The translations under genes were made by a program, and so were the position numbers. The notes under the pieces are model-generated. The model was not told the origin of the DNA. It ran no database searches and worked only from the letters and a program-made list of their open reading frames with translations. From the NCBI GenBank assembly GCA_944321985.1, contig CALUNK010000136.1:1-56593 (forward strand): a stretch of 56,593 bases of DNA. The letters run 5' to 3'. Below, in pieces: positions 5,346 to 43,471 of this stretch; the first letter of the stretch is position 1; each line of letters opens with the position of its first letter. Origin of the DNA: Candidatus Methanomethylophilaceae archaeon (GTDB lineage Archaea > Thermoplasmatota > Thermoplasmata > Methanomassiliicoccales > Methanomethylophilaceae).

Positions 5346-5354
5346 ATTTAAAAT
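5346..5354 (+). promoter_or_regulatory. TATA-like box before the winged-helix gene
   Basis: ATTTAAAAT is centred about 33 bases before the ATG at 5383. This spacing would give a leaderless or near-leaderless transcript. No Shine-Dalgarno sequence precedes the ATG, which fits. The gap is shared with the divergent RloA-like gene. Confidence 0.35.
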
Positions 5355-5382
5355 TTGAATTTATTGATTTAAATTTAGATTA

Positions 5383-5769: not shown

Positions 5770-6517
5770 CAGATGAAATCCGCAATGTTTCTGACTACAA
5801 TAAAATCCACATAAATCCAGAAAAGGACTATTCCTGTTATTGCCCGAAATGTAGAACAATGAGCTATGGTCAATTTCAGCGTTTTGGTAATAAAAGCGAA
5901 CTTGGCATTATTACGGGCGAATTGAAATTACGTCTCGGAGATATTCCAAATCTACTATTGGATCTATATCTCAATTCATATGATGGCAGCTCTCTTGTAT
6001 GTGTACACACATGTAGGCAAGTCACAATAAACGTTTTTGATCAGACATACAATAGATGGAAAACCGACACTAACTTTCGTGTATTCAACCGCCTTGCAGT
6101 ATGATACTTCCTGTGTTCCGGAAGGAATCAACTACTACATGGGGCAGGCTTTCAAGTCCAAATCTGGGTGCATACAGTGCAGTGATGGCGATGTACTGTT
6201 CTACCCTGGAATTCCTTCTCTACGAAAATGGATTCGATGAAAACAGACTGGTTGACAAGATCAAATCCTTCAAAGATAACCCACTCGCTTGGGCGACCAG
6301 CCTCAGCTCACAATTCATGGATGTTATTAAGGATCTCGGAAACAATTCCGTACATCCGAACGGCGGAGACATATCCGAGCAGGAGAAGTTCGATTTCGAA
6401 ATGCTGGAGACTGTAGAGGAAACTATGAACGAGCTCATCGAAAGGGCGTACATACTTCCAAAGAGGGAGAAAGACCGTCTCCATGTTCTGAGTAATGCCA
6501 GTAGAAAAACTAATTGA
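5766..6517 (+). pseudogene. Broken DUF4145-like gene (zinc ribbon plus HEPN-type domain)
   Basis: Three frames in series encode one diverged copy of the intact gene at 7947-8714. Frame 1 (to about 6040) has the zinc-ribbon start YSCYCPKCRTMSYGQF. Frame 2 (about 6037-6165) has DGKPTLTFVYSTALQYDTSC and EGINYYMGQAFKSKS. Frame 3 (about 6168-6517) has GAYSAVMAMYCSTLEFLLY and IKDLGNNSVHPNGGD, the DUF4145 'GN-x-x-VH' helix. The same segments occur in order in the intact copy (INYYMAQAFKSRS, GANSAAMAMYRSALEWLL, LRLLGNNAVHVNDGD). Lesions lie near 6015-6037 and 6162-6168. Its end overlaps the TIR gene start by 23 bases. Real decay or assembly errors are both possible. Confidence 0.75.
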
Positions 6518-15524: not shown

Positions 15525-16979
15525 TCAACGGCTCATCAGGTAGGTGAGGACGCCCTTGCTGTCGGATTCCGCAGCGAGCTCCAGCGCGTCCTTCCCCTCG
15601 GAGTTCCTGAACGACAGGTCGGGCTCGCAGAAGTCGTACATGAGGCGGATCAGGTCCAGGCCCTCGTCGTGGTACAGGGAGGATGCGTACATGATGGCTG
15701 ACATCCCCACGGAGTCCCTGGCGTCGCAGTCCGCTCCCAGCTCCAGCAGCGTGGACACGATGTTCTCTGAATCCATGCCGGAGACGGTGCAGGCGCGTAT
15801 GAGCGGGGTCATCCCCGTGGAGGCGCGGGACGCTATGTCCGCCCCCATGGACACAAGCTTCTCGAACGCGATCGTCCTCACGGACTTCCCGTCGGATGTC
15901 CCGCCCAGCCTTTCGTTCCCGGCCACGAAGCACATCGCCGTCCCCTCTTCGTCCCCGACGGGGAGGTCCGGCGACCCCTGTGCCTTCAGGATCCTCTCGA
16001 GCATCCTGATGTACGCTCCAGAGCTCCTGTCGTTTCCGCCGGTGCCGACCAGGGACTGGAGGGACCTGAGGAGGTAGTAGAGGGCGGTCCTCCCATCGGA
16101 ACCGCGGGAGTACGCGGCGTTTGCTCCGCCGTCCAGCAGGGCGTTGATGGAATCCTCGGCTACCATTTTGCAGGCGATCATTAGCGGGGTCATGCCCTGG
16201 AACGAGTTCTCCTCGTCCAGAGTCTCTTCGGGATCGGCGCCCGAGGACAGCAGCGCGGCGACGGCCTCGGAATCGTTGACCATGACCGCCTGCGCCAGAC
16301 TCATGCCTCCGGAGACGTCGCTGCTGTCCCCGTTCAGGAACGCGGAGGTCTTCTTGATCCTGTTCGAGATGGCGAAGTCCACCGCCTTGCGGCCAATCTT
16401 CGTCTCCGCATCCGGATCTATGCCGCAGCCCACAAGCCATTCCGCCATCTGGCGGCACATCTCGTCCTTCTCCGCGAACTCCTTCGGATCCCTCTCGTAG
16501 GTGTAGTCGTACCTCTGGGCCGCTTCGCAGAGCATGTGGAGGGCGTTCATCCCCGTGCTCTCGTCGGTCGAATCGCATCTGATCTTCATCTTGCCGATGA
16601 CCTCTATCATCGGGTAGTTGTGCATGTACGCGGCTATGTGGTAGAAGCACCTGCCCTGGTCGTCCCTCCTGCCAGGAGGGCATTTGTGGGAGAGCAGGAT
16701 CTCGGTGCACTCGTACATCTCCGACCTCCTCTTCTCCCAGCTCTGGGATGCCAGGAGGTGGAGGGGGGTGCGTCCGTACTCGTCGGTCATCCCGGCCCTG
16801 AATCCACGGTCCAGCAGGATCCTCAGCACCTCGGGGTCCACCATGTCCGCCGCCAGGTGTACGGCGGTCTTCCCGTGAGGGCCCATGTCCGAGGGGTCTA
16901 TGGTGGATGCGATGGAGACGATCACATCACGCGGTCTGTCGTAGCTGTAATAGGCCGATTCCAGTTCTTCGAATTTCAT
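15525..16979 (-). CDS. Ankyrin-repeat protein
   Basis: This 484-residue protein starts at ATG 16979 (MKFEELESAYYSYDRPRDV) and is built of ankyrin repeats. Clear ones read GKTAVHLAADMVDPEVLRIL, GRTPLHLLASQS, GMNALHMLCEAAQRY, GMTPLMIACKMVAEDSINAL, GRTALYYLLRSLQSL, GMTPLIRACTVSGMD and MSAIMYASSLYHDEGLDLI. There is no signal peptide or membrane helix. The ATG overlaps the stop of the upstream gene (ATGA), so both are translated from one mRNA. Ankyrin proteins recur in polymorphic-toxin immunity arrays. The neighbours here carry other such domains, which suggests toxin neutralisation by protein binding. Confidence 0.85.
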   Translation of the reverse strand: MKFEELESAYYSYDRPRDVIVSIASTIDPSDMGPHGKTAVHLAADMVDPEVLRILLDRGFRAGMTDEYGRTPLHLLASQSWEKRRSEMYECTEILLSHKCPPGRRDDQGRCFYHIAAYMHNYPMIEVIGKMKIRCDSTDESTGMNALHMLCEAAQRYDYTYERDPKEFAEKDEMCRQMAEWLVGCGIDPDAETKIGRKAVDFAISNRIKKTSAFLNGDSSDVSGGMSLAQAVMVNDSEAVAALLSSGADPEETLDEENSFQGMTPLMIACKMVAEDSINALLDGGANAAYSRGSDGRTALYYLLRSLQSLVGTGGNDRSSGAYIRMLERILKAQGSPDLPVGDEEGTAMCFVAGNERLGGTSDGKSVRTIAFEKLVSMGADIASRASTGMTPLIRACTVSGMDSENIVSTLLELGADCDARDSVGMSAIMYASSLYHDEGLDLIRLMYDFCEPDLSFRNSEGKDALELAAESDSKGVLTYLMSR

Positions 16980-18034
16980 GATATCGCGCTCACCCAGGGG
17001 AAGTCCTTCCACTCGCCCTCGGTCAGGAGATGCTCGACTGCAAACATAAGCCCAGCGGCGTTCTCGTAGCATGCGTCAGGTCCATAGGGGCACTTCCAGA
17101 ACATGCTTCCGAAGATGTACGACTGCGCGAAGGAGGTCCATGACTCGAAGGCGTCTATGCATCCGTCCGCTATCTGGTCGAGCACGTCCCATGCCTCGTC
17201 CTCGGTGATGAATCCGACGAAGTACCTCCAGCGTGTGACGTTGGCCGCCCTTCCGAGGTCCCATCCGCGAAGCATCATCGGCCCGTACCGGACGGCATAG
17301 GCCTCGGTGAAGGCGAACCTCGAGTCCGAGACCGCGATGTCGTCGTCATCCATGTCCTCGCCATGGAGGTCCTGAGCAGACCCGCCGTTTGCGATCACCT
17401 CGAGGTTGTTGGCGTAGTCCATCGAGTGGCCGCTTGCAATCAGGTATCTCAGGGTGTCGATGAGGCTCTCCCTGTCCTCAACCCCCCAGTAGTTCGAGAG
17501 CAGGGACCTGATCAGGTCCAGGCTGTCCTCGTCCCTTGGCTCCACATCCAGCCCGTCCAGCCTGTGGTCGTTGAGGGTGGAGAGTATCCCCGTGAGGAGG
17601 ATCTCGAACCTGCGCTTCCTCTCGGGGTCGGCAGGCTCGGGCTGCACCTCGGGCAGCTGGGCAAGGGAGGAGACGATCGACTCTATGTCGCCGTATCCGA
17701 ACTGGGACGGTTCCATCGCCCCCATGACGGACTCGGTGAGGGTCTCCTCCTCATCTCCTCCGAGCATCTGCGACATCTGTTCATCGTCGTATCCCATCTG
17801 CTGCATCACCATCCTCGCCTGCGCTTCGGGGTCGACGAATCCGCTCCCGTCTGCGGCGCCCATCATCTGGGTCAGCATCTGTATCTGCATCTGCAGGCTC
17901 TGGTCGATCTGCGAGCACATCTGCTCGACCATAGCAGGGTCGGAGGTGTACATCTGCCTGAACATGTTCTTCTGCGTCTCTGCCTGTGCCTTAATCATCT
18001 CAATCTGCATCTGGATTGGGTCCATGTCTGCCAT
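16976..18034 (-). CDS. DUF1266-containing protein with Met/Gln-rich N-terminus
   Basis: Starting at ATG 18034 (MADMDPIQMQIEMIKAQAET), the first 120 residues are a Met- and Gln-rich coiled helix. A central acidic linker follows. The C-terminal 170 residues fit DUF1266: AFTEAYAVRYGPMMLRGWDL, GRAANVTRWRYFVGFITEDE, and AFESWTSFAQSYIFGSMFW with the typical 'W-DLGR' and 'SW-x-x-F-x-x-SY-x-x-G' signatures. The upstream possible extension (to 18220) has no coding character. The stop overlaps the next gene in ATGA. DUF1266 proteins are of unknown biochemistry and appear with other immunity-like domains. The gene is divergent from the giant gene at 18318. Confidence 0.78.
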   Translation of the reverse strand: MADMDPIQMQIEMIKAQAETQKNMFRQMYTSDPAMVEQMCSQIDQSLQMQIQMLTQMMGAADGSGFVDPEAQARMVMQQMGYDDEQMSQMLGGDEEETLTESVMGAMEPSQFGYGDIESIVSSLAQLPEVQPEPADPERKRRFEILLTGILSTLNDHRLDGLDVEPRDEDSLDLIRSLLSNYWGVEDRESLIDTLRYLIASGHSMDYANNLEVIANGGSAQDLHGEDMDDDDIAVSDSRFAFTEAYAVRYGPMMLRGWDLGRAANVTRWRYFVGFITEDEAWDVLDQIADGCIDAFESWTSFAQSYIFGSMFWKCPYGPDACYENAAGLMFAVEHLLTEGEWKDFPWVSAIS

Positions 18035-18205
18035 GGTCAGGTGATGGCGATGCTTGTTATTAAACTTACATACCGATTCATCATTTTGGACTTTAAAAAT
18101 TTCAGAAGCAATTCCCAAAAACGGCCGATTCCCGCCACAAATCGAGTCATTTTTAATCGCTGTCATCCCGAATCGAGTGGTCGGTACCTCAAGTATTCGA
18201 GATGG

Positions 18206-18216
18206 ATATATAAAAA
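18206..18216 (+). promoter_or_regulatory. TATA box in divergent promoter region
   Basis: ATATATAAAAA lies in the 283-base gap between the DUF1266 gene (leftward) and the large rightward operon. It predicts a start near 18240 and a leader of about 75 bases before ATG 18318, which has AAGGAT just upstream. Confidence 0.45.
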
Positions 18217-18317
18217 CCAAATCAAACTAAAAGTTTTTATTAACTGCAACGGATATACGATACAAACGGTACGACCGTCTCGGGGCGCCTGTGTCCGGCA
18301 GGTTTCGTCAAGGATCA

Positions 18318-21300
18318 ATGGAGAGTTTGATGATGGATTTGGAAGGTCTGCTGAGGCAGTGCCAGGACTGGCACGAGAGCCAGGATTATGAAAGGATAGT
18401 CGAGGCGCTCGAAGGGGTCCCGCCAGGACAGCGCACGACGGAAGTCGACATGGAGCTGGCCAGGGCGTACAACAACCTGGGGACTCAGGAAAACGGCAAC
18501 GAGGCCGATTCCCGGAGGTTGTTGAGAAAGGCCCTGGGGATCATGGAGCAGCATGAGGCCGAGCTCTCAGACGACTACAGCTGGAACTTCCGCATGGGCT
18601 ACTCCCTATTCTTCCTAGAGAGGGAGGGGGAGGCGCTCCCTCACTTCGGGAAGGCCCTGGAACTGCATCCCGGGGACGATCCGAAGTACAACACCAGGGA
18701 GGAGATCCAGACACTGATCGACTCTTGCAGGGAGAGCATGTCGCTCCCGATGTTCGAAACGACGTTCAGGAACAGGGTCATCCGGGCGTGGGAGGAGTTC
18801 GAGAGGGAGGAGGCGGAGATCCGTAGGATGATGGACTCCGACAGGAGGGACGAGTACTCCGATGAGCTGATTCGGAGGATCCAGGACATCCTCGAGATGG
18901 CTTTGGACGACCCGACGTTCGAGTTCGGGATCGACGATGGGAAGCACGACCTCGTGCTCGTGACCCAGGGTGACAAGGTCCGGCTGTTCGAGTACGTCTA
19001 CTTCAGGGACCACGCCCCTGGATCCGTACTGGAGAACTGGAAGATAACTGTCGGACGCCCTCCCAGGCCCGACTTCCATCTGCGCGCCTTCGACCTCGAC
19101 GTCTGCGGCGACGATGTGGAGGCATGGGTCGAGAGGACGGAGGAGGACCGCGTATCCCTCAGGGTATGTTGCGACAAGGTGCAGGATCCGATGGACGATG
19201 AGGACAGAGTCTGGTGGATGCTGTTCACGATCGTCGACAGCGTAATCGGCGAGGTCGCCAACATGAGGCACATAGACAGCTTCGAGGTGGTCGACCATCC
19301 CCCAGAGGGCCAACCCGTCAAGCTGAGCGACCTGCCTAAGGCCATCGAGGACATGGGCATCGTGCTGACCAACGACGCGGAATCCTTCCTGCAGAGGTAC
19401 ACGGTGTACAAGGCGGACCCCGACGAGGAATCCGACGGTCCGTGGCGCATCGACATCCTGTCCGGATCCAACTGCTGCCCTCCCATCATCAACGAGTACT
19501 ACTCCGGCGAGAGGAGGTGCGTCGATACCCTCCATGCCGACGGCGCCGTCGCAGGGTACCTCGCCTACTCCCTCGACATCTTCGACGGTGAGGACAGGAG
19601 CGACAGGATATTCGACTTCCGCGACAGCCTCGAGGGTGCCCTGATGGACAAGGCCGGGGAGGATGCCCTCGCCGTGATCGGAGGGGCCACAGGCCTGCAC
19701 TACGGATACCTGGACTTCATAGCATGGGACCTGCCGTCGGTTCTCAATGCCGCCCAGGATTTCCTCGCGGATTCCGGCGTCTCGAAGGCATTCTTCCGTG
19801 TGTTCGCCACGGATGTCCCCACCTGCATCATAGTCAACAACAGCGATTGGGAGGGGGACTCGATGCTCGGCCCCATGGACATAGCTACACTCGAGTCATT
19901 CATAGGGGAGACACAGGGGCAGTTCGGCGGGGCTCTCGCCTATCTTCTCGATTTCATCGACCGTGGAACGTCGGAGGGGAGATTCACCGAGGAGCAGGCT
20001 CAGCAGGACCTACAGATCGCGCTGTGGTACTCTTACGCATGCATCAACATGCATCAGTACGAGTATTACTACAAGGCAGCGCAGTGGATGCCATCGTCGA
20101 TGTGCAATGCCTCAGGGTGCGGGACGTGGTTCTATCGCTACGTCTGCGCGCTGATGTACTGCGGTAGGTTGGAGAAGGCCCTGGAGATGGCGGAAAGGGG
20201 GACCGAGGAGGAGCCGGACTATCCGTGGGCGTGGCTGCTGCTCGGGGAGCTCCGCGCCCATTTCGGAGACACGGTCGGTGCACTTCATGCTGTAGATCGC
20301 GGCCTGGAGATCGTTCCTGGGGACTACGAGTTCGAGACACTCCGCAGGGAGATCAACGAGGGGGCGACCCTGGATGTCATGTTGAGGCATTGGATAGATC
20401 CGGAACTGGATGCGGATCTCCAGGCGGGGAAGGAGGACGAGGATTCGGAGGCGCTGGACAGGGCAATCCGTTGCGTGGTCCTCGACAATGCCGGGATGGA
20501 GAGGTTCATGGGCATCTTCGGTCCGGAGCCCAGGGACTGGACCGCAGACGATCCGTACTGCTCCTTTAGCCGCGACATGATGGGCCGCAGTATCCGGATT
20601 GAATTCAGGATGAACCGTGCCGGGCTCTCCAAGATGGACGAGAGCTTCCTTGAGAACCTGAGGGGATGGTTCGACGAGGGCCGCTGGCTCAGGTATCCGT
20701 TCGGAAAACCAGACGACTCGCCGGACATACTCCTGGACACGGTCATCGTCTTCCTTGACGGGACCGCTGCCCTCTCTTATCGCGACCCGGAGGGTAGCGA
20801 CGACATCATCCTCGGACTAGACCCTATGGGACATCCGTCGCCTCCTGTGATTCCGGACAACGATCCGGAGGGAGACGACAGTGATCGTTCCGAAGATGGC
20901 GAGGACGACGAGACCGGCGTGTTCGCAGGGTTCGTGCTCATGTCCAGGGTATCCTGGAGCAAGAGGCGGCTCATCCGCGATCTGAAGGAGATGTGGGGAA
21001 TCGAGGCCGAGGAGGACGATGACGACTCCAATGACGACGCCCTCGTATTCGAGGTCGACGGAAGGGTGGCGGCCGTGAGCCTGATGAGGGGACCGATTCC
21101 CGAGGGGGAGGCGGAGGCCAACGCCGAGAACAACTACATGTGGCCGGAGGCCGTGGAAATCGCCAAGGAGCACAGGGCACACCTCCTAGTGTTCGTCGGG
21201 GCGAAGGAAGATGACGATCTGATCGAGAGGGGGAAGCTGTTCGTGAAGCTCCTCTCGTCGTGCTGCCGTCAGGAGAATGTCTCAGGCGTGTACACCAGCG

Positions 21301-22907
21301 GAGTCGTGTTCCAACCCGAGTTCTACGAGGCCATGGCCGAGATGATGAGGGAGGGCGAGCTCCCGATCTTCAACTGGATCTGGTTCGGACTGTACAGGAC
21401 TGAGGGCGGCATTTCGGGGTACACGTACGGGATGAGGACCTTCGGAAGGGAGGAGGTCGAGGTCCTTGATGCGGAAGCGGAACCCGATGAGGTCAGGGAC
21501 TTCCTCGCGAACATCGTCTCGTACCAGCTCGAATGCGACGTCCGCCTGAAGGACGGGGAGACGATAGGGTTCTCGCAGAACGACAGGCACACGATCTCCC
21601 TCAGCGAGGGCGTCGCTCTCCCGGGGATGACGCTCAAGGTATCCTACAGTGCTGCCGAGATATGGATGGACGATGCCGAATGCCATCTGGAGAGCATACG
21701 CGAGAAATCCCTTCCCGTGGACGAGATCGCCGCATACAACCACATGGCGATCTACCTGAGATGGTGCGTCGAGCACGGCCTGATGGGCGACGACTTCATG
21801 GAGGAGCACGGGGAACAGGTCGCCGGGAACGACCTGCGCCCGTTCATCAGGGACGTGCTCGGTGGCAGACTGGATGCGGGCATGTTCAACAGCGACGGTT
21901 GGGGGTTCGCCAGGTACTACTACAACTACTGCAGCGAATTGGATTCCCCGCACTACCCCTCCGACATCGATGACCACGCTCTGAGGTACTTCGGTCCGGA
22001 ACGCTACAACTCGGACGAGTTCAAGACGGAGGCTTATCTGTTCATCCCGTTCGACGAGGAGTACTACGGCGACATGGCCGAGGTCATCGGTCGGCGCTAC
22101 GCCAACTGGAAGAACCAGGAGATTGACCCCGGAACCCGGAACCCCTCCGATCTCGCGAAGGCCATGATGGACTATCTGGGTTGCGAGTGCCAGTACTTCC
22201 CGTCCATGAGGGACGACGACCCCATCATGTCGGCGTACGGGTACGCCCGGCGTCTCGGTGTCAGGGAGGGGTACATACCCGTCCTGGTGAAGGTCGATGA
22301 GATCCTCTGGGAGTGCCTGATACTCAATTCCGACCCGGAGAGCGACGGCTCCGAGGACCACTCGTTCGACCGGGAGAAGGTGGAGGAGTACCGCGAGAGC
22401 ATCCTCTCCGCCCCGACCGGGGACGGCAGGAAGGTCCTGGACTCCATGGTGGGACAGCGCAGATTGGAAGCCGAGGACGACGACATGGACTGGGATGAGG
22501 AAATCATCGGAAGCGTTCAAGGAGGGGAGGGACGCGACCGTCTGGCCAGCTACTGGAACTACGAGACGCAGATGACGGACCCGATGATCCTGGCCAAGAT
22601 TCCGGTGAAGGACCCCTGGGAGGTCTTCGCCTGGCTGCCCTTCGGGAACTGGAACGAGTGCCCCGACACACCTGAACTGATGTCCGCCGCAAGGTACTGG
22701 TTCGAACGCTACGGCGCCGTCCCGGCCGCCATCACCCATGACGAGCTGGAGTTCATCCTGCAGGAGCCGGTCCCGGAGGACGAGGCGCTGGAAGTCGCGG
22801 TGGACCAGTACGGGCTGTGTCCGGACATGGACCAGGGCCACGAGACTATGGGGCACCTCGCTGATGAGCTGCGCCAGTCCACGGTGTGGTACTTCTGGTG
22901 GGACTGA
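18318..22907 (+). CDS. Giant multi-domain immunity-like protein (TPR - TPR - DUF4261 - shared module - DUF4253)
   Basis: The protein is about 1,529 residues if read from ATG 18318; GTG 18291 and ATG 18330 are other possible starts. Residues 1-145 form tetratricopeptide-like helices (ARAYNNLGTQENGNEADSRR, FFLEREGEALPHFGKALELH). A SUFU-like or related mixed domain seems to follow up to about 590. A second TPR block lies at about 617-680. A DUF4261 domain runs at about 865-1112 (GFVLMSRVSWSKRRLIRDL, HRAHLLVFVGAKEDDDLI, GVYTSGVVFQPEFYE, LFKS-type ending). A module at about 1135-1270 (DEIAAYNHMAIYLRWCVEHG) is shared with the next gene. The C-terminal 110 residues fit DUF4253, with VFAWLPFGNWNECPDTPELM and the terminal WYFWWD. 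It has no signal peptide. It leads a compact operon. Confidence 0.8.
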   Translation: MESLMMDLEGLLRQCQDWHESQDYERIVEALEGVPPGQRTTEVDMELARAYNNLGTQENGNEADSRRLLRKALGIMEQHEAELSDDYSWNFRMGYSLFFLEREGEALPHFGKALELHPGDDPKYNTREEIQTLIDSCRESMSLPMFETTFRNRVIRAWEEFEREEAEIRRMMDSDRRDEYSDELIRRIQDILEMALDDPTFEFGIDDGKHDLVLVTQGDKVRLFEYVYFRDHAPGSVLENWKITVGRPPRPDFHLRAFDLDVCGDDVEAWVERTEEDRVSLRVCCDKVQDPMDDEDRVWWMLFTIVDSVIGEVANMRHIDSFEVVDHPPEGQPVKLSDLPKAIEDMGIVLTNDAESFLQRYTVYKADPDEESDGPWRIDILSGSNCCPPIINEYYSGERRCVDTLHADGAVAGYLAYSLDIFDGEDRSDRIFDFRDSLEGALMDKAGEDALAVIGGATGLHYGYLDFIAWDLPSVLNAAQDFLADSGVSKAFFRVFATDVPTCIIVNNSDWEGDSMLGPMDIATLESFIGETQGQFGGALAYLLDFIDRGTSEGRFTEEQAQQDLQIALWYSYACINMHQYEYYYKAAQWMPSSMCNASGCGTWFYRYVCALMYCGRLEKALEMAERGTEEEPDYPWAWLLLGELRAHFGDTVGALHAVDRGLEIVPGDYEFETLRREINEGATLDVMLRHWIDPELDADLQAGKEDEDSEALDRAIRCVVLDNAGMERFMGIFGPEPRDWTADDPYCSFSRDMMGRSIRIEFRMNRAGLSKMDESFLENLRGWFDEGRWLRYPFGKPDDSPDILLDTVIVFLDGTAALSYRDPEGSDDIILGLDPMGHPSPPVIPDNDPEGDDSDRSEDGEDDETGVFAGFVLMSRVSWSKRRLIRDLKEMWGIEAEEDDDDSNDDALVFEVDGRVAAVSLMRGPIPEGEAEANAENNYMWPEAVEIAKEHRAHLLVFVGAKEDDDLIERGKLFVKLLSSCCRQENVSGVYTSGVVFQPEFYEAMAEMMREGELPIFNWIWFGLYRTEGGISGYTYGMRTFGREEVEVLDAEAEPDEVRDFLANIVSYQLECDVRLKDGETIGFSQNDRHTISLSEGVALPGMTLKVSYSAAEIWMDDAECHLESIREKSLPVDEIAAYNHMAIYLRWCVEHGLMGDDFMEEHGEQVAGNDLRPFIRDVLGGRLDAGMFNSDGWGFARYYYNYCSELDSPHYPSDIDDHALRYFGPERYNSDEFKTEAYLFIPFDEEYYGDMAEVIGRRYANWKNQEIDPGTRNPSDLAKAMMDYLGCECQYFPSMRDDDPIMSAYGYARRLGVREGYIPVLVKVDEILWECLILNSDPESDGSEDHSFDREKVEEYRESILSAPTGDGRKVLDSMVGQRRLEAEDDDMDWDEEIIGSVQGGEGRDRLASYWNYETQMTDPMILAKIPVKDPWEVFAWLPFGNWNECPDTPELMSAARYWFERYGAVPAAITHDELEFILQEPVPEDEALEVAVDQYGLCPDMDQGHETMGHLADELRQSTVWYFWWD

Positions 22908-22918
22908 GGGGTGATCCC

Positions 22919-24847
22919 ATGCGCGGAAGATCTATTGCGAGGATCCGCGAGAAGGCGGAGCTCCTGATACGGCTCAGCGAGTACTCGAAATGCATCAGGG
23001 AGATCGAATCCGTCCCCGAGGACGAGAGGGGATACGGCCTGACCGTCCTCCTGGGGTGGGCGTACAGCAACCTGGCGGTTCTTGGAGACCGCGATGCCAA
23101 CAGGGACGACATCGACCCGGACCAGGCGATGCTGGAGAAGGCCGTCGGGATACTCGGTTCTGTGGAGGGACAGGGCAGTGGCGACCCGCTCTGGAACTCC
23201 CGCATGTGCTACGCCCTGTGGATGATTGACGGCAGGGAGGGCGAGGCCCTCACGTACGCCGAGAGGTGGGCGGAGCTGGAACCCGACAACGGGGATGCCA
23301 GGAGGCAGGTCGAGACGATCAGGGAGTTCATCGACGATGCCCCGTCGAGAGCCCCGGAGATGTACGATGAGGGCCAGTGGGATGCGGTGGAGAGGCACAT
23401 CGCTGAGCACTTCGGGGACTTCCCGAACGTGTACCACGAAATTGTGTCCCCGGACATCCATGTGGACATCTGCCTCATACCCCCCAGGAGGGACCACGAC
23501 TACCACACGCTGGTCACGATGGGGATGGGTGCCCACGAGATGGACATCCCGGAAGGGGTCGAGGACGTGCGCAGACGCGCCGAGGTCATGATCAACCTGC
23601 CCAGGGATTGGAGACTTGACGAGGATTCCCTACGGGACAGCAGGTGGTACTGGCCGATCAGGATGCTCAAGGATGTGGCAAGGCTACCGATAAACACCGG
23701 ATGCTGGCTGGGATGGGGGCACACTGTCGGCATGGATGACGAGGGCACATATGACGACAGCACGAGTCTGTGCGGATGCATACTGCTCAGCCCGGGCGTG
23801 TTCGGAGGCGGTTCGTACATCTGCGACCTGCCGGATGGGGACCAGGTGGAGTTCTTCCAGGTCATCCCTCTTTACAGAGAGGAGATCGAGTACAAGATCG
23901 GGAACAGTGCGGAGGATCTGCTGGATCTCAGCAACGACGACCTCCTGGAGGTCATAGATCCATGCAGGCTCAACATCGTCAGCGATTTCGACAGGTTCGA
24001 GCACGACGATGCGGTCATGGATGCCGTCGGAAAGCACCAGGGCATCATAGACCGTCTGGGACTGGAGGTTGATGCACTTGCCGCGTACAACCATATGGCC
24101 ATCTACCTGAGATGGTGCATCCTGAACGGGAAGGTCAACAGGAGGTTCGTCAACAGACATCGGGACATCGTATCCAAGGTCACATCGGGGGAGGTCACCG
24201 ATCTACGTGCATTCGTGCGTGACGATCCGGATCTAGAGGGGAAACTGACCACTCTGCATCTGAACCCCATAGGATCTTGGTTCACCCAGTGGTACAACTG
24301 GGGTGACCGCTCTAACCCCTATGAGTTCTTAAGGGACGTCAAAGATTATGCGGACCGGTTCTTCGCGGAAAAGGAGTGGGGAAGCGAGGAGGAGATGTTC
24401 TACGCCTACCTTCAGGTGCCCTGGTCGGAGGAGTACTGCAGCGATATGACGGAGGTCATCAACGGACGTTTCGGACAGTGGCTTGAATCCAATCCTTCCG
24501 TGTCACAAGATTACGAGGATGATTGCCGTCCGGATCCTGAGGGATGGGAGGGGGCGAGAGACTGCATTGTCAGCGAGGCCGTATCCTCAGGGAGCGTCCC
24601 TATCGGATTCTGCATACGTCGGGAGCCCGAGAGGGAGGACCAGGGATGGGACTCCGGATGGCGCTTCTTCGCCTATGACGATGATGACATCGACGAGGGA
24701 CGGATCGTGTTCCGCAGCCTGTGGTCCGTGTGCGATTCGGATCCCGACATCAGGAGGATACTGGACCTGCCGTTCGGAACGGCTTTCGTACGTGGAAAAG
24801 ACGGCAAGCTCCATCCGTACGAGGAAGACGATCCAGCGGAGCTGTGA
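22919..24847 (+). CDS. TPR - SUFU - shared module - DUF2185 (Imm33) immunity-like protein
   Basis: ATG 22919 follows GAGGGGTGAT and lies 11 bases after the preceding stop. The 642-residue protein has TPR-like helices (1-140), then a suppressor-of-fused (SUFU) domain at about 168-354 with IHVDICLIPPRRDHDYHTLV, TMGMGAHEMDIPEGVEDV and AEVMINLPRDWRLDEDSL, all family hallmarks. The same module as in the giant gene (DALAAYNHMAIYLRWCILNG, about 386; AYLQVPWSEEYCSDMTEVIN) comes next. The last 95 residues fit DUF2185, now Imm33: RDCIVSEAVSSGSVPIGFCI, WRFFAYDDDDIDEGR, RRILDLPFGTAFVRGKDGK. SUFU and Imm33 are established immunity families of polymorphic toxins. Four domains in one chain suggest a poly-immunity protein. 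Confidence 0.85.
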   Translation: MRGRSIARIREKAELLIRLSEYSKCIREIESVPEDERGYGLTVLLGWAYSNLAVLGDRDANRDDIDPDQAMLEKAVGILGSVEGQGSGDPLWNSRMCYALWMIDGREGEALTYAERWAELEPDNGDARRQVETIREFIDDAPSRAPEMYDEGQWDAVERHIAEHFGDFPNVYHEIVSPDIHVDICLIPPRRDHDYHTLVTMGMGAHEMDIPEGVEDVRRRAEVMINLPRDWRLDEDSLRDSRWYWPIRMLKDVARLPINTGCWLGWGHTVGMDDEGTYDDSTSLCGCILLSPGVFGGGSYICDLPDGDQVEFFQVIPLYREEIEYKIGNSAEDLLDLSNDDLLEVIDPCRLNIVSDFDRFEHDDAVMDAVGKHQGIIDRLGLEVDALAAYNHMAIYLRWCILNGKVNRRFVNRHRDIVSKVTSGEVTDLRAFVRDDPDLEGKLTTLHLNPIGSWFTQWYNWGDRSNPYEFLRDVKDYADRFFAEKEWGSEEEMFYAYLQVPWSEEYCSDMTEVINGRFGQWLESNPSVSQDYEDDCRPDPEGWEGARDCIVSEAVSSGSVPIGFCIRREPEREDQGWDSGWRFFAYDDDDIDEGRIVFRSLWSVCDSDPDIRRILDLPFGTAFVRGKDGKLHPYEEDDPAEL

Positions 24848-24849
24848 CG

Positions 24850-25077
24850 ATGTACATCGAGGGCAGATTCTGGAACAACCCCATCGGTGACACCGACTAC
24901 AGCCTGAACCTCGTGGCCTTCCTCGAGGACAGGGGGAAGGAGGAGATCGCGCTAGCCGAGATCTTCTCAGCGATCGGTCTTGACAGACAGGGATGGGACT
25001 TCCACCGTACGGTGGAGTACATGGAGGATACCCCTTCCAACGGAGTGGAGACGGATCTCCATTTCGCCTCGACCTGA
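24850..25077 (+). CDS. Small hypothetical protein in the immunity-like operon
   Basis: A 75-residue protein starts with ATG 24850, two bases after the TGA of the preceding gene, so it is almost certainly cotranscribed. It reads MYIEGRFWNNPIGDTDYSLN and continues with LVAFLEDRGKEEIALAEIF, suggesting a small mixed strand-helix fold. I do not recognise it. Its position and length suggest another single-domain immunity-type protein. Confidence 0.65.
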   Translation: MYIEGRFWNNPIGDTDYSLNLVAFLEDRGKEEIALAEIFSAIGLDRQGWDFHRTVEYMEDTPSNGVETDLHFAST

Positions 25078-25093
25078 TGAAAGAGGAATAACA

Positions 25094-25273
25094 ATGAGCA
25101 TTTATTGGTGGTTTTTGATTCCAGCTATTGTTTTAGCAGTCTTTTCCGGATCAATCGATGCGGCTTTAAAATCCAACGGAGAACTGAAGAAAGTAATTCT
25201 GGTTTTTTCTGTGGGTGTGGTGCTCGTGTGCTGCATCGCAATCACAGCTTCCCTATTTGCGAAATTAGTGTAA
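25094..25273 (+). CDS. Small two-helix membrane protein
   Basis: ATG 25094 follows GAGGAATAACA. The 59 residues hold two hydrophobic helices, WWFLIPAIVLAVFSGSID and VILVFSVGVVLVCCIAITAS, joined by a short loop with KSNGELKK. Base composition is more AT-rich than its neighbours, which suggests separate origin. There is no known family. Confidence 0.6.
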   Translation: MSIYWWFLIPAIVLAVFSGSIDAALKSNGELKKVILVFSVGVVLVCCIAITASLFAKLV

Positions 25274-25304
25274 ACTATTGTTGAAAACAGAAAAAGGAGG
25301 CATC

Positions 25305-25472
25305 ATGTTGGGACTCGACATCTACGCCGGGACGCTGACCCGGTACTATTCTCACAACTGGAAGGCCGTTGTTCAGCAATGGGCGGATGATTACGGAGTA
25401 GAGTTGGAAATAGAAATCGGAGGAAGACAGGTTCGCACTGTAGCGAGCCGAGCATCAGAATACAACGATTGA
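25305..25472 (+). CDS. Short protein, possible truncated immunity-like gene
   Basis: A strong Shine-Dalgarno (AAAAAGGAGG) precedes ATG 25305. The 55-residue product begins MLGLDIYAGTLTRYYSHNWK, a start that I associate with a larger uncharacterised family. Here the frame ends at TGA 25472 after a short tail (GGRQVRTVASRASEYND). It may be a truncated remnant or a true small protein. The next gene begins 32 bases later with its own strong ribosome site, so the operon continues. Confidence 0.5.
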   Translation: MLGLDIYAGTLTRYYSHNWKAVVQQWADDYGVELEIEIGGRQVRTVASRASEYND

Positions 25473-25504
25473 TGCAAACTTATGATTGCAAAGGAGGAGA
25501 GAAG

Positions 25505-26227
25505 ATGACAGACGAATGGATGAAGAGATACAGAGACGAGAAGGACAAGCTCACAAGCCGGATAGACCTGGACGCGTACTTCACAGAGAGAAAGATCGGG
25601 AACACCGATGTGGATACCATGGACATCGGCACCGTCAGTTTCCCCACGGGACGGATACTGGCATGCGACCCGCTGATCGAACTCGAGGACAGGCCGCCGT
25701 ATTTCCAGGCCGTACCTCCGGGAACCTACCCTGTGACGATCTGCGTGATACCGAGCGAGAAGTACGGGGACCGCTACGCCTGTGTGAAGGTGACGGTCTC
25801 GGATGCCAGGCCGGTGCGCTACGACATGGCGATGGTTGGCGACGAGAATCTTGACGAGGACCTGGAGGAAGGGGACTACTTCGGATTCATCGTCGACACC
25901 GGCATGGGATGCATCGCGGACGTCGGGACCCAGAAGGCGTTCAGGGAGTACTGGGCGAAGCGTCTGGAGGAGGACGAGGATATAGATGCGTACAACGACC
26001 TGTTCTGCGACCTCCTCGAGGAGAGCTACAACGAGAACCCCCGTTATCAGAGGGATGGAGGGGACTGGGCGAACTGGACCGTTCCCGGGACGGACCTGAG
26101 CATCCCGATATTCTCGTCGGGATGGGGCGACGGGGTCTACCCGTGCTACTTCGGATACGACTCCGACGGTAACGTCAGCGGTGTGTACATCCTGTTCATT
26201 GAAATCGAGGACGATCCCGAGGAGTGA
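25505..26227 (+). CDS. DUF4241 protein
   Basis: ATG 25505 has a near-ideal Shine-Dalgarno (AAAGGAGGAG) just upstream. The 240-residue protein fits DUF4241: SFPTGRILACDPLIELEDRP, PPGTYPVTICVIPSEKY, VRYDMAMVGDENLDEDLEEG, YFGFIVDTGMGCIADV, and SSGWGDGVYPCYFGYDSDG with the typical 'SGWGDG-x-YP' loop. It is a soluble protein of unknown activity. DUF4241 genes are often found among immunity-like proteins. Its stop overlaps a possible GTG start of the next frame. Confidence 0.82.
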   Translation: MTDEWMKRYRDEKDKLTSRIDLDAYFTERKIGNTDVDTMDIGTVSFPTGRILACDPLIELEDRPPYFQAVPPGTYPVTICVIPSEKYGDRYACVKVTVSDARPVRYDMAMVGDENLDEDLEEGDYFGFIVDTGMGCIADVGTQKAFREYWAKRLEEDEDIDAYNDLFCDLLEESYNENPRYQRDGGDWANWTVPGTDLSIPIFSSGWGDGVYPCYFGYDSDGNVSGVYILFIEIEDDPEE

Positions 26228-26430
26228 CCACGGTTGGGATCCGTCGCTTCTGGACAAACGTGGATGCGGAGGATGAAAACAACATCGGATTGTTCGGTCG
26301 CGCCCGAGCGTCAGTTCTTGCTGACAAGCACATCTTGGCCTGGTGCAGGCAGATGCGGTCGGCCGCATCATTGGTCGGTGTCCGATGCGAGGGTTTTCAG
26401 GGGAACCTGGGTAATGAAGGAGAACCAACG

Positions 26431-27435
26431 ATGAACGAGGACCTGTTCCGTCCGCAATTCGATAGGTTGGAGCCGCCAGAGAGGCTCCGTCTGATGCAGA
26501 CACTGGCAGATCGCCACAACATGACATTCAGGGGGCTACGCGAATTTTCCCGCTGGGGACAGAGCTGCACCACCGGGCTGTTCGAAAAAGGCGGTAGGGA
26601 GTTCGTCTTCGTCCCGGGCGACACCGTCGTCCTCGGCTGGGAGCGGTTCGCCGTGGGGATGGATCAAGAAAGCAGGGAGGAGCTGGAGGATGTGTTCCTT
26701 GAATGGGGGATCGACTGCACTCCGGAGGAGTTCATCGGTGAAGACATGGCTCCGGTGCGCCAGGCGACCATCGGCCCGATGTTCGTGGGCCGGAAACTGG
26801 AGGAGATCGGATGGGAGAGCGTGCCCATGGACGATCCCCGCATCACCGCCCACCCGGAATGGCTGGAGGGCCTTAAGAGGTGGGCCGAGAAGGGTGGCCA
26901 GAGCCTCGAGGTCAGCCAGACCGTCCGCTTCGAGCGCGATGGCGATGGGTGGCGCGCATGGCTGTGCCACCGCATGACCTACCCCGAGTTTCAGCTGTCC
27001 CTGCTGTGGGAACTGGCAGCCACCCTCCCCACACCGGATGAGTGGGCCTATCTGTGCGGAGGCGGATGCCGCACCCTGTTCCCCTGGGGGGATGGCATGG
27101 ACTACGAGATGAGGCTGCACCATTTCGAAGATTCGGAGGACCGGGGAAGGCCGTACGACATGGAGGAACCCAACTTCTTCGGCCTGTCCATCGCCTACGA
27201 CCCCTATAGGCGGGAGTTGGTGGACGGAGGAACGTTGACCACATGCGGAGGCGACGGGGGCCGCAACATCTGCGGCGGTCTGGGGCCCCTGCTCGGATAC
27301 CTGCCCTGTTCGCCTCACTGCAGGCCGGAGGTCCGGGATGATGACGAGATCTCTAGCGATTTCGACTTCTTCCGTCCTGTCATCAGGGTGAAGACGTCCG
27401 GGTGGAGGATGGTATCGCCCAAGGATAAGAAATGA
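26431..27435 (+). CDS. Formylglycine-generating-enzyme-like (C-type-lectin-like fold) protein
   Basis: ATG 26431 is preceded by AAGGAG at a good distance; an upstream GTG at 26224 is less likely. The C-terminal half has LPTPDEWAYLCGGGCRTLFP followed by WGDG, which matches the FGE/SUMF1 'LPTEAEWE-YA-RGG...PWG' motif. Then come PNFFGLSIAYDPYRREL and FFRPVIRV, the 'N-x-x-GL' and 'GFR' positions of the fold. The N-terminal 200 residues are not recognised. In this fold many members have lost enzymatic cysteines and act as binding modules, so I do not claim sulfatase activation. It is the last gene of the rightward operon. Confidence 0.65.
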   Translation: MNEDLFRPQFDRLEPPERLRLMQTLADRHNMTFRGLREFSRWGQSCTTGLFEKGGREFVFVPGDTVVLGWERFAVGMDQESREELEDVFLEWGIDCTPEEFIGEDMAPVRQATIGPMFVGRKLEEIGWESVPMDDPRITAHPEWLEGLKRWAEKGGQSLEVSQTVRFERDGDGWRAWLCHRMTYPEFQLSLLWELAATLPTPDEWAYLCGGGCRTLFPWGDGMDYEMRLHHFEDSEDRGRPYDMEEPNFFGLSIAYDPYRRELVDGGTLTTCGGDGGRNICGGLGPLLGYLPCSPHCRPEVRDDDEISSDFDFFRPVIRVKTSGWRMVSPKDKK

Positions 27436-28914: not shown

Positions 28915-29877
28915 ATGAAAAAGCAGTTAGTCGTGCTGGCGATGATTCTGGTTCTGACAGGAGTCTCCGTGACGGCACTATGCGTTTATCAGGACGATGT
29001 AAGGTCGGACGTCCATGTGCTGACTCCGGGGTATCTGGAAAGCGACGATTATGACGCTATGGTAAGACTGGGCGATTCGAACTATTGGAACGTATCCCTG
29101 GAGTCTAGGGTGGACGCGTCATGCTGGACCGATTCAGGCATGGTCTGTTTGATAAGCGTGACCGTCAGCGTCAACCAGGACTACGTCTTTGAGACGTTCG
29201 GGCTCCGTTACAGCTATGTTTCTGACGGCGACTCGCTCATTCCCTCCGACGCCGCCTCGGACCAGGACATGGGGCCAGACGTGTCTCGCCAATATGTCGA
29301 TCCTGTGACGGGCGACACGCTGTTGTTCCGTGAATCCGGTGGTATGCTGGAGAGCATAAGGTTCAATGGAACCACCGTCGTGGGCGGTGAGGGTGATTTC
29401 GAGTATGCGGAATTCGACCTGGTGGTGACCTACGAGCCACAGCTGAAGTATGTGAGCAAACTCATCCTTCGCGATGCAGGCGATAAGACCGAGATGGCGG
29501 TCCAGGGGACGGAGAACGGGATTCCGGTCTCGGGGAGCCTGTTGATCTCGCCGATGCCTGCGGTCGTGAACTCCGCAGCCTATGTCTCCGAAAGACACAT
29601 TCTGTCACTGGAACTGTCCGGAACCCTGATTCCCCAGGAGCTGCTGTCCGTGGTTATGCCTGCCAACGGAGGGACTATCAATCAGATGCTATGCACAACA
29701 TCGTATCTGAGACAGGACAGTACATACATAGTTCCTGAAATCGAGTACGATTATGGGGTTGACGAGTACGGAAAGACAATGTTCACCATGTCTGGAACTG
29801 TAATGATGTATCATCTCGACGGAGACTGCTACGCGATCTCCAAAGAAACGGTCGAGTTCGACTACGAGGTGGTGTGA
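28915..29877 (+). CDS. Membrane-anchored exported protein of ABC cassette A
   Basis: This 320-residue protein has an N-terminal export helix (KKQLVVLAMILVLTGVSVTA) and an otherwise extracellular beta-rich body with motifs such as SYVSDGDSLIPSDAASDQD, YVDPVTGDTLLF and EYAEFDLVVTYEP. A paralog of the same layout at 49777-50733 shares 'SYM/V-x-D-x-x-x-LVP-x-DA', 'DP-x-TG-x-x-L-x-F' and the C-terminal 'ETVEF-x-YEV'. Its TGA at 29877 directly abuts the ATG of the ATPase. It probably works outside the membrane with that ABC transporter, either as a substrate-handling partner or as an immunity/sensor protein. This is inference. Confidence 0.7.
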   Translation: MKKQLVVLAMILVLTGVSVTALCVYQDDVRSDVHVLTPGYLESDDYDAMVRLGDSNYWNVSLESRVDASCWTDSGMVCLISVTVSVNQDYVFETFGLRYSYVSDGDSLIPSDAASDQDMGPDVSRQYVDPVTGDTLLFRESGGMLESIRFNGTTVVGGEGDFEYAEFDLVVTYEPQLKYVSKLILRDAGDKTEMAVQGTENGIPVSGSLLISPMPAVVNSAAYVSERHILSLELSGTLIPQELLSVVMPANGGTINQMLCTTSYLRQDSTYIVPEIEYDYGVDEYGKTMFTMSGTVMMYHLDGDCYAISKETVEFDYEVV

Positions 29878-30801
29878 ATGGGCGGTACGCTCGTCGTGGA
29901 GGACGTCATCAAGACGTTCAGGGGCTTCCGCGCGGTGGACGAGGTCTCGTTCACCGTGTCGGAGGGGAGCTTCACCGCCCTCCTCGGTCCTAACGGATCC
30001 GGAAAGAGCACCACGCTGAAGATGTGCACCAACCTGTTCCAGCCGGATTCCGGCAGGATCCTGGTCAACGGGATCGACGTCCGCGAGGACACCGTCGGGG
30101 CCATGTCCGGCGTGGGGTGCGTCATAGAGACGCCCGAGATCTATCCTGACGTGACCGGCAGGAGGTACCTGGAGTATCTCGCCGAGGTGTCCGGGATGAC
30201 GTCGGAGTCCGCCGCGTCCGAGGCCGAGAGAGTCCTCGGCATCGTCGGCATGTCGGACCGCGCCGACGGGAAGGTGAAGGGATACTCCAAGGGCATGAGG
30301 CAGAGGGTGGTCCTGGCACAGTCGCTGCTGGGCGACCCGTCCCTTCTGATACTGGACGAGCCCACGTCCGGCCTGGACCCGCAGGGGTCCGCGGAGTTCG
30401 GGAGGATCCTCACGGACCTGAACTCGCGGGGGAAGACCATACTGATGAGCTCCCACATGCTTCATGAGGTCGAGGGGCTCTGTGACAGCGCCGTGATAAT
30501 CAACCGCGGGAGGGTCGCCAGGCAGGGAAGCATCGAGGAGATCGTCAGCAGGTCCACAATCACCGTATCCACGGTAGGGGACGTGAGCCGTGACATTATC
30601 TCGATGGTTTCCGATATGCCTGCGGTCACCGAGGCCTCCGCCATCGACGGTGGATTGACCGTCAGGCTGGACGGCGGTCCGGAGAGGCAGGCGGACCTCG
30701 TGAAGGCGCTTGTTTCGATGGGCGTGCGCGTGTACGCGGTCAGAAAGGAGGATCCCCTGGAGGAGGCCTTCATGGACATAACCGGGGGTGCCGGCTCATG
30801 A
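29878..30801 (+). CDS. ABC transporter ATP-binding protein (cassette A)
   Basis: A complete ATPase subunit of 307 residues. Walker A is ALLGPNGSGKSTTLKMCTNL (about residues 34-53). A Q-loop region follows with GVGCVIETPEIYPDVTG. The signature is YSKGMRQRVVLAQSLLGDP, Walker B is LLILDEPTSGLDPQG, and the H-loop is MSSHMLHEVEG. The C-terminal 80 residues are the 'ISRSTITV...VRKEDPLEEAFM' extension of the CcmA/NatA-type exporters. ATG directly follows the preceding stop, and its own stop overlaps the permease ATG by 4 bases, so the three genes form one unit. Confidence 0.95.
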   Translation: MGGTLVVEDVIKTFRGFRAVDEVSFTVSEGSFTALLGPNGSGKSTTLKMCTNLFQPDSGRILVNGIDVREDTVGAMSGVGCVIETPEIYPDVTGRRYLEYLAEVSGMTSESAASEAERVLGIVGMSDRADGKVKGYSKGMRQRVVLAQSLLGDPSLLILDEPTSGLDPQGSAEFGRILTDLNSRGKTILMSSHMLHEVEGLCDSAVIINRGRVARQGSIEEIVSRSTITVSTVGDVSRDIISMVSDMPAVTEASAIDGGLTVRLDGGPERQADLVKALVSMGVRVYAVRKEDPLEEAFMDITGGAGS

Positions 30802-31598
30802 ACGCCGCATACGCGCTCAGGCAGGTGTCCGTGATCACGCGGTTCGAGGCCCGCAGGAAGGTCCTGAGCTGGAGGATGCTGTTCCCGATGCTCTGCGCGG
30901 CGGTCATATGCGTGCTGGCGTACACCACAGGGAGCGGCGCCGCATCGGGGATGGACGGCACGGAGGCGTCCAACGCGTTCCTGAGGCCGTTCATCGCCTC
31001 CGCGTCGCTGGTCCTGGCGATAAGCGCCACCGTGATGTCCACCGAGTCCCTCTCGGAGGAGTTCGAGCGCAGGTCGGGATACATAACGTTCACCAAGCCC
31101 CTCGGCAGGAACGTGCTGTTCGCCGGGAAGTTCCTGTCGGGGTTCCTGCCGTCCGTCGCCGTTCTGGCGTTCTACTACGCGGTGACGTACGCCCTGTGCC
31201 TAGCGGTCGTCGGCGGCGTACCCGGCTCGGCGTTGACCTCGGTGCCCCTTGCGCTGCTGTACCTCGCGGCGGTCACGGGCGTGTGCATGCTGTTCAGCGC
31301 CCTGGCGCCCAGGGGCAGCATGGCCATGATGGTGGCCTTCCTGCTGCTCGTGGTGCTGCAGATCTTCATGCAGAACGTGGGGTTCGACAGCGAGCCGTGG
31401 TACAGCCTGGGGTACGAGGCGGGGATAATCGCCGACTACCCCATAGGCAACCAGACGGTGTTCAGAATTGACGCGTCAGGGAACCTTTACACATCGGACT
31501 ATGTCCCGGACATCAGGATGGCCTGCGCGGTGATGTCCGTATACGCCATACTGTCGACGGCGTTCGCGGCGTTCGTGTTCAGGTACAGGAACATGTGA
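30798..31598 (+). CDS. ABC-2 type permease (cassette A)
   Basis: This 266-residue integral membrane protein has about six hydrophobic segments, including FPMLCAAVICVLAYTTGS, PFIASASLVLAISATVMS, SVAVLAFYYAVTYALCLAVV, SALTSVPLALLYLAAVTGVC and MVAFLLLVVLQIFMQNVG. The motif ESLSEEFERRSGYITFTKPL with the linked 'R-x-x-LFAGKFLSGFLPS' is the cytoplasmic coupling loop of NatB/ABC-2 permeases. ATGA overlap with the ATPase ensures cotranslation. The cargo is unknown. A RiPP-like cluster begins 14 bases downstream, so the pair may export its product. Confidence 0.88.
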   Translation: MNAAYALRQVSVITRFEARRKVLSWRMLFPMLCAAVICVLAYTTGSGAASGMDGTEASNAFLRPFIASASLVLAISATVMSTESLSEEFERRSGYITFTKPLGRNVLFAGKFLSGFLPSVAVLAFYYAVTYALCLAVVGGVPGSALTSVPLALLYLAAVTGVCMLFSALAPRGSMAMMVAFLLLVVLQIFMQNVGFDSEPWYSLGYEAGIIADYPIGNQTVFRIDASGNLYTSDYVPDIRMACAVMSVYAILSTAFAAFVFRYRNM

Positions 31599-41370: not shown

Positions 41371-41375
41371 GGGCA

Positions 41376-43468: not shown

Positions 43469-43471
43469 AAC

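Follow-up and report, generated by a model that had tools for sequence, protein, structure and literature searches.

As listed in Table 1, it was found that a minus-strand pair of genes and a longer plus-strand series lie back to back inside the window (the whole analysed stretch of 56,593 nucleotides). The first-pass annotation had read them as a toxin-free poly-immunity locus, and had proposed HMM searches of the segments and a comparison among relatives. In the HMM searches, the ankyrin, DUF1266, DUF4261, DUF4253, SUFU, Imm33, and DUF4241 domains that it had named were all found with strong Pfam support, immunity-type domains included. These calls are Pfam matches above the curated cut-offs and hence not chance, except for that of the FGE-like gene. 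The domains do not sit in conserved housekeeping proteins, which was the finding that would have spoken against the annotation. It was also revealed that the locus has two DUF7832 domains, TPRs, an unannotated module of ~360 aa (U1), and a truncated Imm68 gene, all of which had gone unmentioned. The first gaps of the plus-strand arm are 11 and 2 bp and the later ones ~200 bp, the ank-DUF1266 pair being a second, divergent arm.

Table 1. Features of the locus, with coordinates in the window.
Feature	Position	Strand	Evidence or remark
Ankyrin-repeat protein, 484 aa, Imm-Ank-like; second gene of minus-strand pair	15525..16979	-	Pfam Ank_2, E=7.8e-43
DUF1266 protein, 352 aa	16976..18034	-	Pfam PF06889, E=1.9e-32; 4-bp overlap with ankyrin gene
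Divergent promoter region, 295-bp gap, TATA-like elements on both sides	18035..18329	.	Five-locus alignment
1525-aa multi-domain protein: TPR - U1 - TPR/U2 - DUF4261 - DUF7832 - mid - DUF4253	18330..22907	+	
U1, ~360-aa conserved alpha+beta module without Pfam family	18690..19829	+	Alignment of 31 sequences
DUF4261 domain	21420..21641	+	Pfam, E=4.8e-19
DUF7832 domain, copy 1	21666..22007	+	Pfam, E=1.5e-25
DUF4253 domain	22590..22904	+	Pfam, E=4e-31
642-aa protein: TPR-like N-terminus - SUFU - DUF7832 - Imm33	22919..24847	+	Pfam
SUFU domain	23453..23968	+	Pfam, 2.5e-41; also matched in genome search
Imm33 (DUF2185) domain	24563..24817	+	Pfam, 1.5e-15
Imm68 remnant, 75 aa	24850..25077	+	Pfam Imm68, 1.5e-9
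Block between two deletions	25079..25397	+	90.6% DNA identity to G051
Chimeric stub: 31-aa start of LDIYAG-family gene joined to tail of pre-DUF4241 gene	25305..25472	+	
DUF4241 protein, 240 aa	25505..26227	+	Pfam, E=5.1e-66
FGE-like protein (334 aa); nearest copies in gut Bacillota	26431..27435	+	Profile match to FGE/SUMF1, 7e-5

The ankyrin protein is 57-63% identical to DUF1266-adjacent genes of four same-genus genomes. In the divergent gap, the blocks TTATAAA and GTATTTATTA are conserved in the alignment of five loci. The 1525-aa protein is a mosaic when compared with its counterpart in the genome G051; residues 1-504 are 79% and residues 864-1525 are 88% identical, while the central block has been swapped, 359 aa replacing 172 aa. 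The U1 module inside this protein gave a good AlphaFold model (pLDDT 87, pTM 0.83). However, a fold assignment was dropped because the structure searches were weak, with a best Foldseek E of 0.03, a VIA Z of ~8 confined to an S6-like ferredoxin half, and no confident PDB match. Sequence profiles of U1 returned nothing from PDB and Pfam, and no correspondence was found between either U1 or the LDIYAG family and the Imm66, Imm67, and Imm69 families that Zhang et al. named.

The 642-aa protein, whose DUF7832 domain has a Pfam match of 3.4e-15, is 87%, 73%, and 70% identical to its relatives in G051, G079, and G053, respectively. SUFU and Imm33 share one polypeptide, with the Imm68 remnant and the ankyrin protein nearby, as expected from the claim of fused and clustered immunity domains. 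The SUFU tree requires at least four label changes. Where standalone homologues occur on plasmids, a directly neighbouring toxin gene was suggested in just one case, in Pseudomonas luteola (SUFU, HNH endonuclease, and ankyrin).

What follows the 642-aa gene was clarified by comparison with the same-genus MAG G051/UBA71, where the next gene encodes an 1850-aa protein with the order Imm68-Imm33-TPR-DUF4261-SUFU-DUF7832-DUF4253. Over 73 aa, the Imm68 remnant of the window matches the N-terminal end of this protein at 70% identity; it is the truncated first domain, the rest of the polyimmunity protein having been lost. The first deletion junction lies at 25072/25079. Within the following block lie a membrane ORF of 59 aa and the first part of an LDIYAG-family gene, and the block ends at a second junction (25380-25397) where the matching blocks overlap by 18 bp. 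The DUF4241 protein beyond it is 85% identical in G051 and is part of a TPR giant by fusion in G053. Judging from these alignments, the window copy arose by deletion, and two junctions can be identified relative to UBA71. It has lost most of the 1850-aa Imm68-Imm33-SUFU protein, along with many small genes, and is partly degraded.

The last gene had been called FGE-like. As a divergent relative, this call stood; the profile of the family matches human FGE/SUMF1 structures at 7e-5 via lPTxxEWxYxCGGG..LFPWG. The window protein alone has no match in Pfam, and the FGE-sulfatase family gives a weak match in 36/40 homologues (best E 0.006, under the curated cut-off). A structure model from five sequences was unusable (pLDDT 44) and was set aside in favour of the profile searches. 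Thus, the protein is best described, from its sequence, as a distant FGE relative. It shares 74-77% identity with the Bacillota version and falls inside a Bacillota clade of 23 rows in the FGE tree (support 100/99).

Does the locus belong to an archaeon? The gene at the right end of the window is 92% and 88% identical to genes of two same-genus genomes, the former complete, and orthologues are found within the single-contig genome G053. Contamination of the contig was therefore ruled out. The host is a member of Methanomassiliicoccales, and named relatives of that order also back the archaeal origin. The GC content of the locus is 59.6% and that of a 202-kb sample of the genome 58.6%, confirming the reported match to the core genome. 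Pure adaptation to the host, which had been read from it, did not hold, since the locus is a shortened element that circulates horizontally and is interspersed with remnants. Moreover, the FGE-like gene has 62% GC against 39-54% in the measured Bacillota loci, which fits amelioration; a core-like GC content does not exclude import.

In the genus, the locus is patchy. The SUFU-DUF7832-Imm33 gene is present in 4/31 genomes and a closely related version of the FGE-like gene in 2/31, so that the invariant presence in relatives that would have counted against the annotation was not seen. UBA71 has an intact extended version (>25 kb, about 20 genes), which includes an array of short genes and has a tyrosine recombinase nearby (Phage_integrase 3e-15), whereas the window has few genes and no recombinase was found among ten flank ORFs scanned. 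Contig C37 of the archaeon's own genome has an unoccupied orthologous site. Gene gain and loss are therefore visible as the two junctions, the unoccupied site, and the swapped central module. The plus-strand genes have a dN/dS of 0.13-0.18 relative to G051, indicating that they are maintained, and their long ORFs are intact; no positive selection was seen gene-wide. SUKH is absent from the genus.

I found that gut Bacillota have homologous multi-domain proteins with the same modules fused to SUKH, SUFU, Imm33, and Imm68. The 2072-aa homologue of Holdemania, for example, has the same modules plus SUKH (2.6e-23), and its array also contains DUF4259, DUF4304, DUF3885, and another DUF4261. The bacterial elements share 93-97% DNA identity over 8-16 kb between Erysipelotrichaceae, Lachnospiraceae, and Oscillospiraceae. 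In a survey of 80 loci, U1 modules were found in 72 and the FGE-like gene in 46. Since the bacterial homologues have SUKH and full-length Imm68 in the same polypeptide, their architecture is that of the polyimmunity proteins of Zhang et al. 2012 (PMC3482391).

The comparison lent support to the poly-immunity reading, in that the proteins have homologues among bacterial polyimmunity proteins, the locus changes as a mosaic, and its presence is patchy. It is thus probable that the locus is a heterogeneous polyimmunity locus circulating horizontally between the two domains of life, with a putative role in binding and neutralising toxins delivered by neighbours. The transfer presumably ran from bacteria to archaea. 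I infer toxin binding by these proteins, as well as the identity of the attackers and toxins. The multi-domain proteins would stay in the cytoplasm, where each domain (TPR, U1, DUF4261, DUF7832, and DUF4253 in one; SUFU, DUF7832, and Imm33 in the other) may attach to and block toxin domains that neighbouring microbes inject or release. The DUF4241, FGE-like, DUF1266, and ankyrin proteins may likewise present toxin-binding domains, and the TPR and ankyrin parts may be scaffolds or extra binding surfaces. The locus would evolve via module swapping, insertion, and deletion. For DUF4261, DUF4253, DUF7832, DUF4241, DUF1266, U1, and the FGE-like protein, the immunity role is putative, by association. 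I know of no toxin delivery route into these archaea, and found no report of toxin neutralisation by such multi-domain proteins for any organism.

Might the proteins protect the archaeon from toxins of its own? In bacteria, SUFU and Imm33 usually accompany toxins as their self-immunity partners (PMC3482391). However, scans with Pfam, NCBIfam, and PADLOC revealed no recognisable toxin domain in the locus, as the first-pass annotation had claimed, and the lack of a co-encoded toxin indicates a defensive role. A search for the toxin markers RHS and WXG100 also found neither of them in the genome or the genus. Judged by these markers and the domain scans, self-immunity was disfavoured and is very improbable. 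It is unlikely, though less remote, that the locus is an uncharacterised anti-phage system, in which the TPR and ankyrin proteins would detect phage components, the Imm-like domains having been recruited as sensors. The window is indeed a defence island, with an AbiLi-like ATPase, TIR effectors, Thoeris ThsA/ThsB, SIR2, and Shedu flanking both sides, and the ankyrin protein has weak, generic PADLOC matches. Those of the multi-domain proteins, DUF1266, DUF4241, and the FGE-like gene are not above chance, and an effector enzyme is not recognisable in the locus. Rather, SUKH, SUFU, Imm33, and Imm68 are fused together in the homologues, and the locus has a GC content of 60% compared with about 40% in the phage-defence flanks.

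The truncated Imm68 gene and the chimeric stub left by the two deletions may instead suggest a decaying passenger, a set of immunity genes imported from bacteria that now do little for the archaeon. This has a similarly small chance of being right; the intact long ORFs and the low dN/dS are contrary to decay, the GC contents of the FGE-like and DUF4241 genes are near the host's rather than those of donor-like loci, and UBA71 keeps the extended version intact.

Gut methanogens could be real targets of contact-dependent or secreted bacterial toxins, capturing and exchanging working bacterial polyimmunity islands, with one inter-domain pool of mobile antidote genes protecting bacteria and archaea alike in the gut; this wider proposal is tentative, the chances being slightly against it. 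That a methanogen has a locus with close homologues in gut Bacillota, kept by purifying selection and remodelled through swaps and deletions, suggests that toxins strike archaea in crowded communities and that these archaea keep antidotes of a bacterial type. The finding supplies defined proteins for testing, ties the modules without an immunity name to immunity, and opens a way to study the survival of methanogens next to bacteria.

Polymorphic toxin systems and polyimmunity loci have been described from bacteria, with most lineages of archaea generally lacking them (PMC3482391). The locus resembles the polyimmunity loci of Zhang et al. 2012 (PMC3482391) in its fusions of SUFU, Imm33, Imm68, ankyrin, and TPR (with SUKH in the homologues), the lack of a co-encoded toxin, variable content, co-oriented tight spacing (in part of the plus-strand arm), and, for the UBA71 locus, the nearby recombinase; several of the loci of Zhang et al. 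adjoin one of XerC/D type. It differs in its archaeal host, as extended loci were found there only in proteobacteria, bacteroidetes, firmicutes, and actinobacteria, in its modules without an Imm name (U1, DUF7832, DUF4261, DUF4253, DUF4241, DUF1266, and FGE-like), and in its divergent ank-DUF1266 arm. In the AID/rAID clusters of Bacteroidales, orphan immunity genes are likewise arrayed on mobile DNA, together with a tyrosine recombinase, although these are short, co-oriented single-domain genes against T6SS effectors (PMC12247911), while giant fused proteins dominate in the archaeon. A Bacteroides finegoldii array offers a parallel, in which DUF1266 adjoins ankyrin genes alongside genes annotated as Imm5 and PoNe immunity. 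The mobile element of gut Bacillota (Holdemania filiformis L125, Hungatella, and Faecalibacterium) retains SUKH and full-length Imm68, and has no DUF1266/ankyrin arm in the loci seen. It nevertheless shares with the archaeal locus the module set and order of the multi-domain protein and the FGE-like and LDIYAG-family neighbours, and the Imm68-Imm33 segment of G051 is up to 88-91% identical to it.

It was found by Pfam searches that the locus at window positions 15525-27435 has the domains listed by the first-pass annotation (ankyrin, DUF1266, DUF4261, DUF4253, SUFU, Imm33, and DUF4241), as well as an Imm68 remnant and two DUF7832 domains. These additions, and a module of about 360 residues (U1) in the 1525-aa protein, are absent from that list. 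U1 has no Pfam family; it is predicted to be an alpha+beta module by a confident structure model (pLDDT 87) with no confident relative in the PDB. The FGE-like fold proposed earlier, that is, a divergent relative of the formylglycine-generating enzyme, stands as distant homology only: FGE-sulfatase is weakly matched by 36 of 40 homologues, and the family profile matches human FGE/SUMF1 (7e-5) across the lPTxxEWxYxCGGG..LFPWG motif.

Features of the locus and its phage-defence flanks (window positions)
Feature	Position	Strand	Evidence or place
AbiLi-like AAA ATPase and CAP12/Pycsar-type TIR effector	4015-7346		AT-rich stretch left of locus; PADLOC 2.3e-70 and Pfam 1.3e-35, respectively
Ankyrin repeats	15525-16979	-	Pfam
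DUF1266	16976-18034	-	Pfam
1525-aa protein, TPR, DUF4261, DUF7832, DUF4253	18330-22907	+	Pfam
642-aa protein, SUFU, DUF7832, Imm33	22919-24847	+	Pfam
Imm68 remnant	24850-25077
DUF4241	25505-26227	+	Pfam
Anti-phage cluster, including a SIR2-like gene	37092-46535		right of locus
Thoeris ThsB	39394-40029		right of locus
Thoeris ThsA	40026-40778		right of locus
Shedu SduA	44492-45700		8.8e-87
Second ThsB	45774-46535		5.6e-62

Is the contig a bacterial contaminant? The genome is an archaeal MAG (1.78 Mb, 141 contigs, 86% completeness). Those of its relatives that have names belong to the Methanomassiliicoccales; UBA71 and another uncultured MAG are among them. Contamination is ruled out by the window's rightmost gene, whose counterparts in two genomes of the same genus are 92% and 88% identical to it. 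The GC content of the locus (59.6%) is like that of a genome sample (58.6%), as had been noted. The 642-aa gene is present in 4 and DUF1266 in 5 of the 31 genomes of the genus, and SUFU in 8 of 389 genomes in the phylum sample. A close FGE-like gene is shared by the window and UBA71 (2/31), while four other genus genomes have a distant N-terminal version. In the window's own genome, a second DUF1266 paralogue with 59% identity stands by itself on another contig (G000:C55:3128-4192, L197).

The 1525-aa protein is a mosaic relative to a 1334-aa protein of UBA71 (residues 1-504, 79% identity; residues 864-1525, 88%), with a central block of 359 residues in place of 172. Next to the 1334-aa gene, UBA71 has an intact 1850-aa Imm68-Imm33-TPR-U1-DUF4261-SUFU-DUF7832-DUF4253 gene followed by about 15 more genes, most of them co-oriented and many with 60-92% identity to genes of gut Bacillota. 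A short way upstream are a tyrosine recombinase and a TetR-family gene. The extended polyimmunity island on this archaeal contig (UBA71, DARO01000012.1; L058:4309-18284, L214:1-14540) comprises about 20 genes. DNA alignment shows the window copy to be the UBA71 locus with two deletions. At window 25072/25079 the match leaps from about position 31951 of the UBA71 contig to 41330; at window 25380-25397, where the segments before and after the junction have an 18-bp overlap, it leaps from 41649 to 46019. A chimeric 55-aa stub and the shortened Imm68 gene are the deletion scars. Elsewhere in the window's genome, contig C37 lacks, at the orthologous site, a 7.4-kb module (ankyrin, DUF1266, and a giant multi-domain protein) present in the same-genus genome G053. 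UBA71 and G079, another genus-mate, have a common flanking region (97% identity, 889 bp), beside which their gene numbers strongly differ.

A scan with a SUFU-alignment pattern gave 271 encoding stretches. Among the best 80 of these, 77 are bacterial, nearly all from Bacillota and mostly gut-associated; U1-containing modules occur in 72 and FGE-like genes in 46. A 2072-aa homologue of Holdemania filiformis (Imm68-Imm33-TPR-U1-SUKH-DUF4261-SUFU-DUF7832-DUF4253) belongs to an array that also contains FGE-like, DUF4259, DUF4304, DUF3885, LDIYAG-family, and DUF4261 genes. Bacterial elements from different families are 93-97% identical along 8-16 kb; thus, the elements move. Among FGE-like proteins, the one in the window lies inside a 23-row clade (support 100/99) with a Bacillota group to which it is 74-77% identical; it falls well apart from the FGE-like domains in its genus-mates, which are distant (38-44%). 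Archaeal SUFU domains are scattered in the SUFU tree with at least four label changes; the 642-aa type clusters with two Bacillota proteins sharing its architecture, while a second SUFU of UBA71 lies deep within Oscillospiraceae and Lachnospiraceae. Because of the wider bacterial diversity and this nesting, transfer probably went from bacteria to archaea, as judged from unrooted trees sampled via one SUFU pattern.

In another archaeal order, a MAG contig putatively assigned to Candidatus Methanocorpusculum faecipullorum (JAHLFR010000026.1, L119) encodes a U1-U2-SUFU-DUF7832-DUF4253 polyprotein (47-72% identity); its remaining genes resemble archaeal phosphate-transport genes. A 75.8-kb Subdoligranulum variabile plasmid (OY725843.1) has SUFU, DUF4241, and Imm68-Imm33 homologues (54-83%) inside 10 kb, and is a plausible vehicle for a polyimmunity element.

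The locus is flanked by two AT-rich stretches (about 40% GC) with anti-phage genes; the whole window is a conflict island, in which phage defence adjoins putative toxin immunity. An ABC-transporter gene set occurs twice (28915-31598 and 49777-52454; ATPases 84% identical), on either side of the right-hand stretch, with a 74% homologue in genus-mates G076 and G079; the copies are possibly duplicated flanks of an insertion. Two similar short genes with the motif MFNLIANNN...SVANxKxGxESVRxN lie in opposite orientation inside or at the edge of that stretch (38732-39202, minus; 49152-49532, plus).

What might the domains do? Most likely, each would bind and block incoming toxin domains in the cytoplasm, and the set as a whole would cover many toxins at once; the TPR and ankyrin parts may serve as a scaffold or a further binding surface. 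The targets, and the route by which toxins would enter the archaeal cell, are conjectural; in bacteria, SUFU and Imm33 are tied mainly to HNH-type nucleases (PMC3482391). Self-immunity against a visible polymorphic toxin of its own, of the RHS or WXG100 classes, is ruled out, since neither these domains nor SUKH were found in the genus. Compared with UBA71, the plus-strand genes have dN/dS values of 0.13-0.18, within the range of a single chromosomal control gene (0.18), and are therefore maintained; their dS (0.43-0.81) is lower than that of the one control (0.89), and no gene-wide positive selection was seen.

Polyimmunity proteins are fusions among SUKH, SUFU, Imm33, Imm66-69, ankyrin, and TPR, in operons without toxins, and their loci vary in content and, in several cases, have adjacent recombinases (PMC3482391). 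The definition, that of Zhang et al. (2012), covers DUF1266 and ankyrin in part only; a Bacteroides finegoldii array combines the two with genes annotated as Imm5 and PoNe immunity. The window family shares with polyimmunity the clustering, fusion, absence of toxins, and variability.
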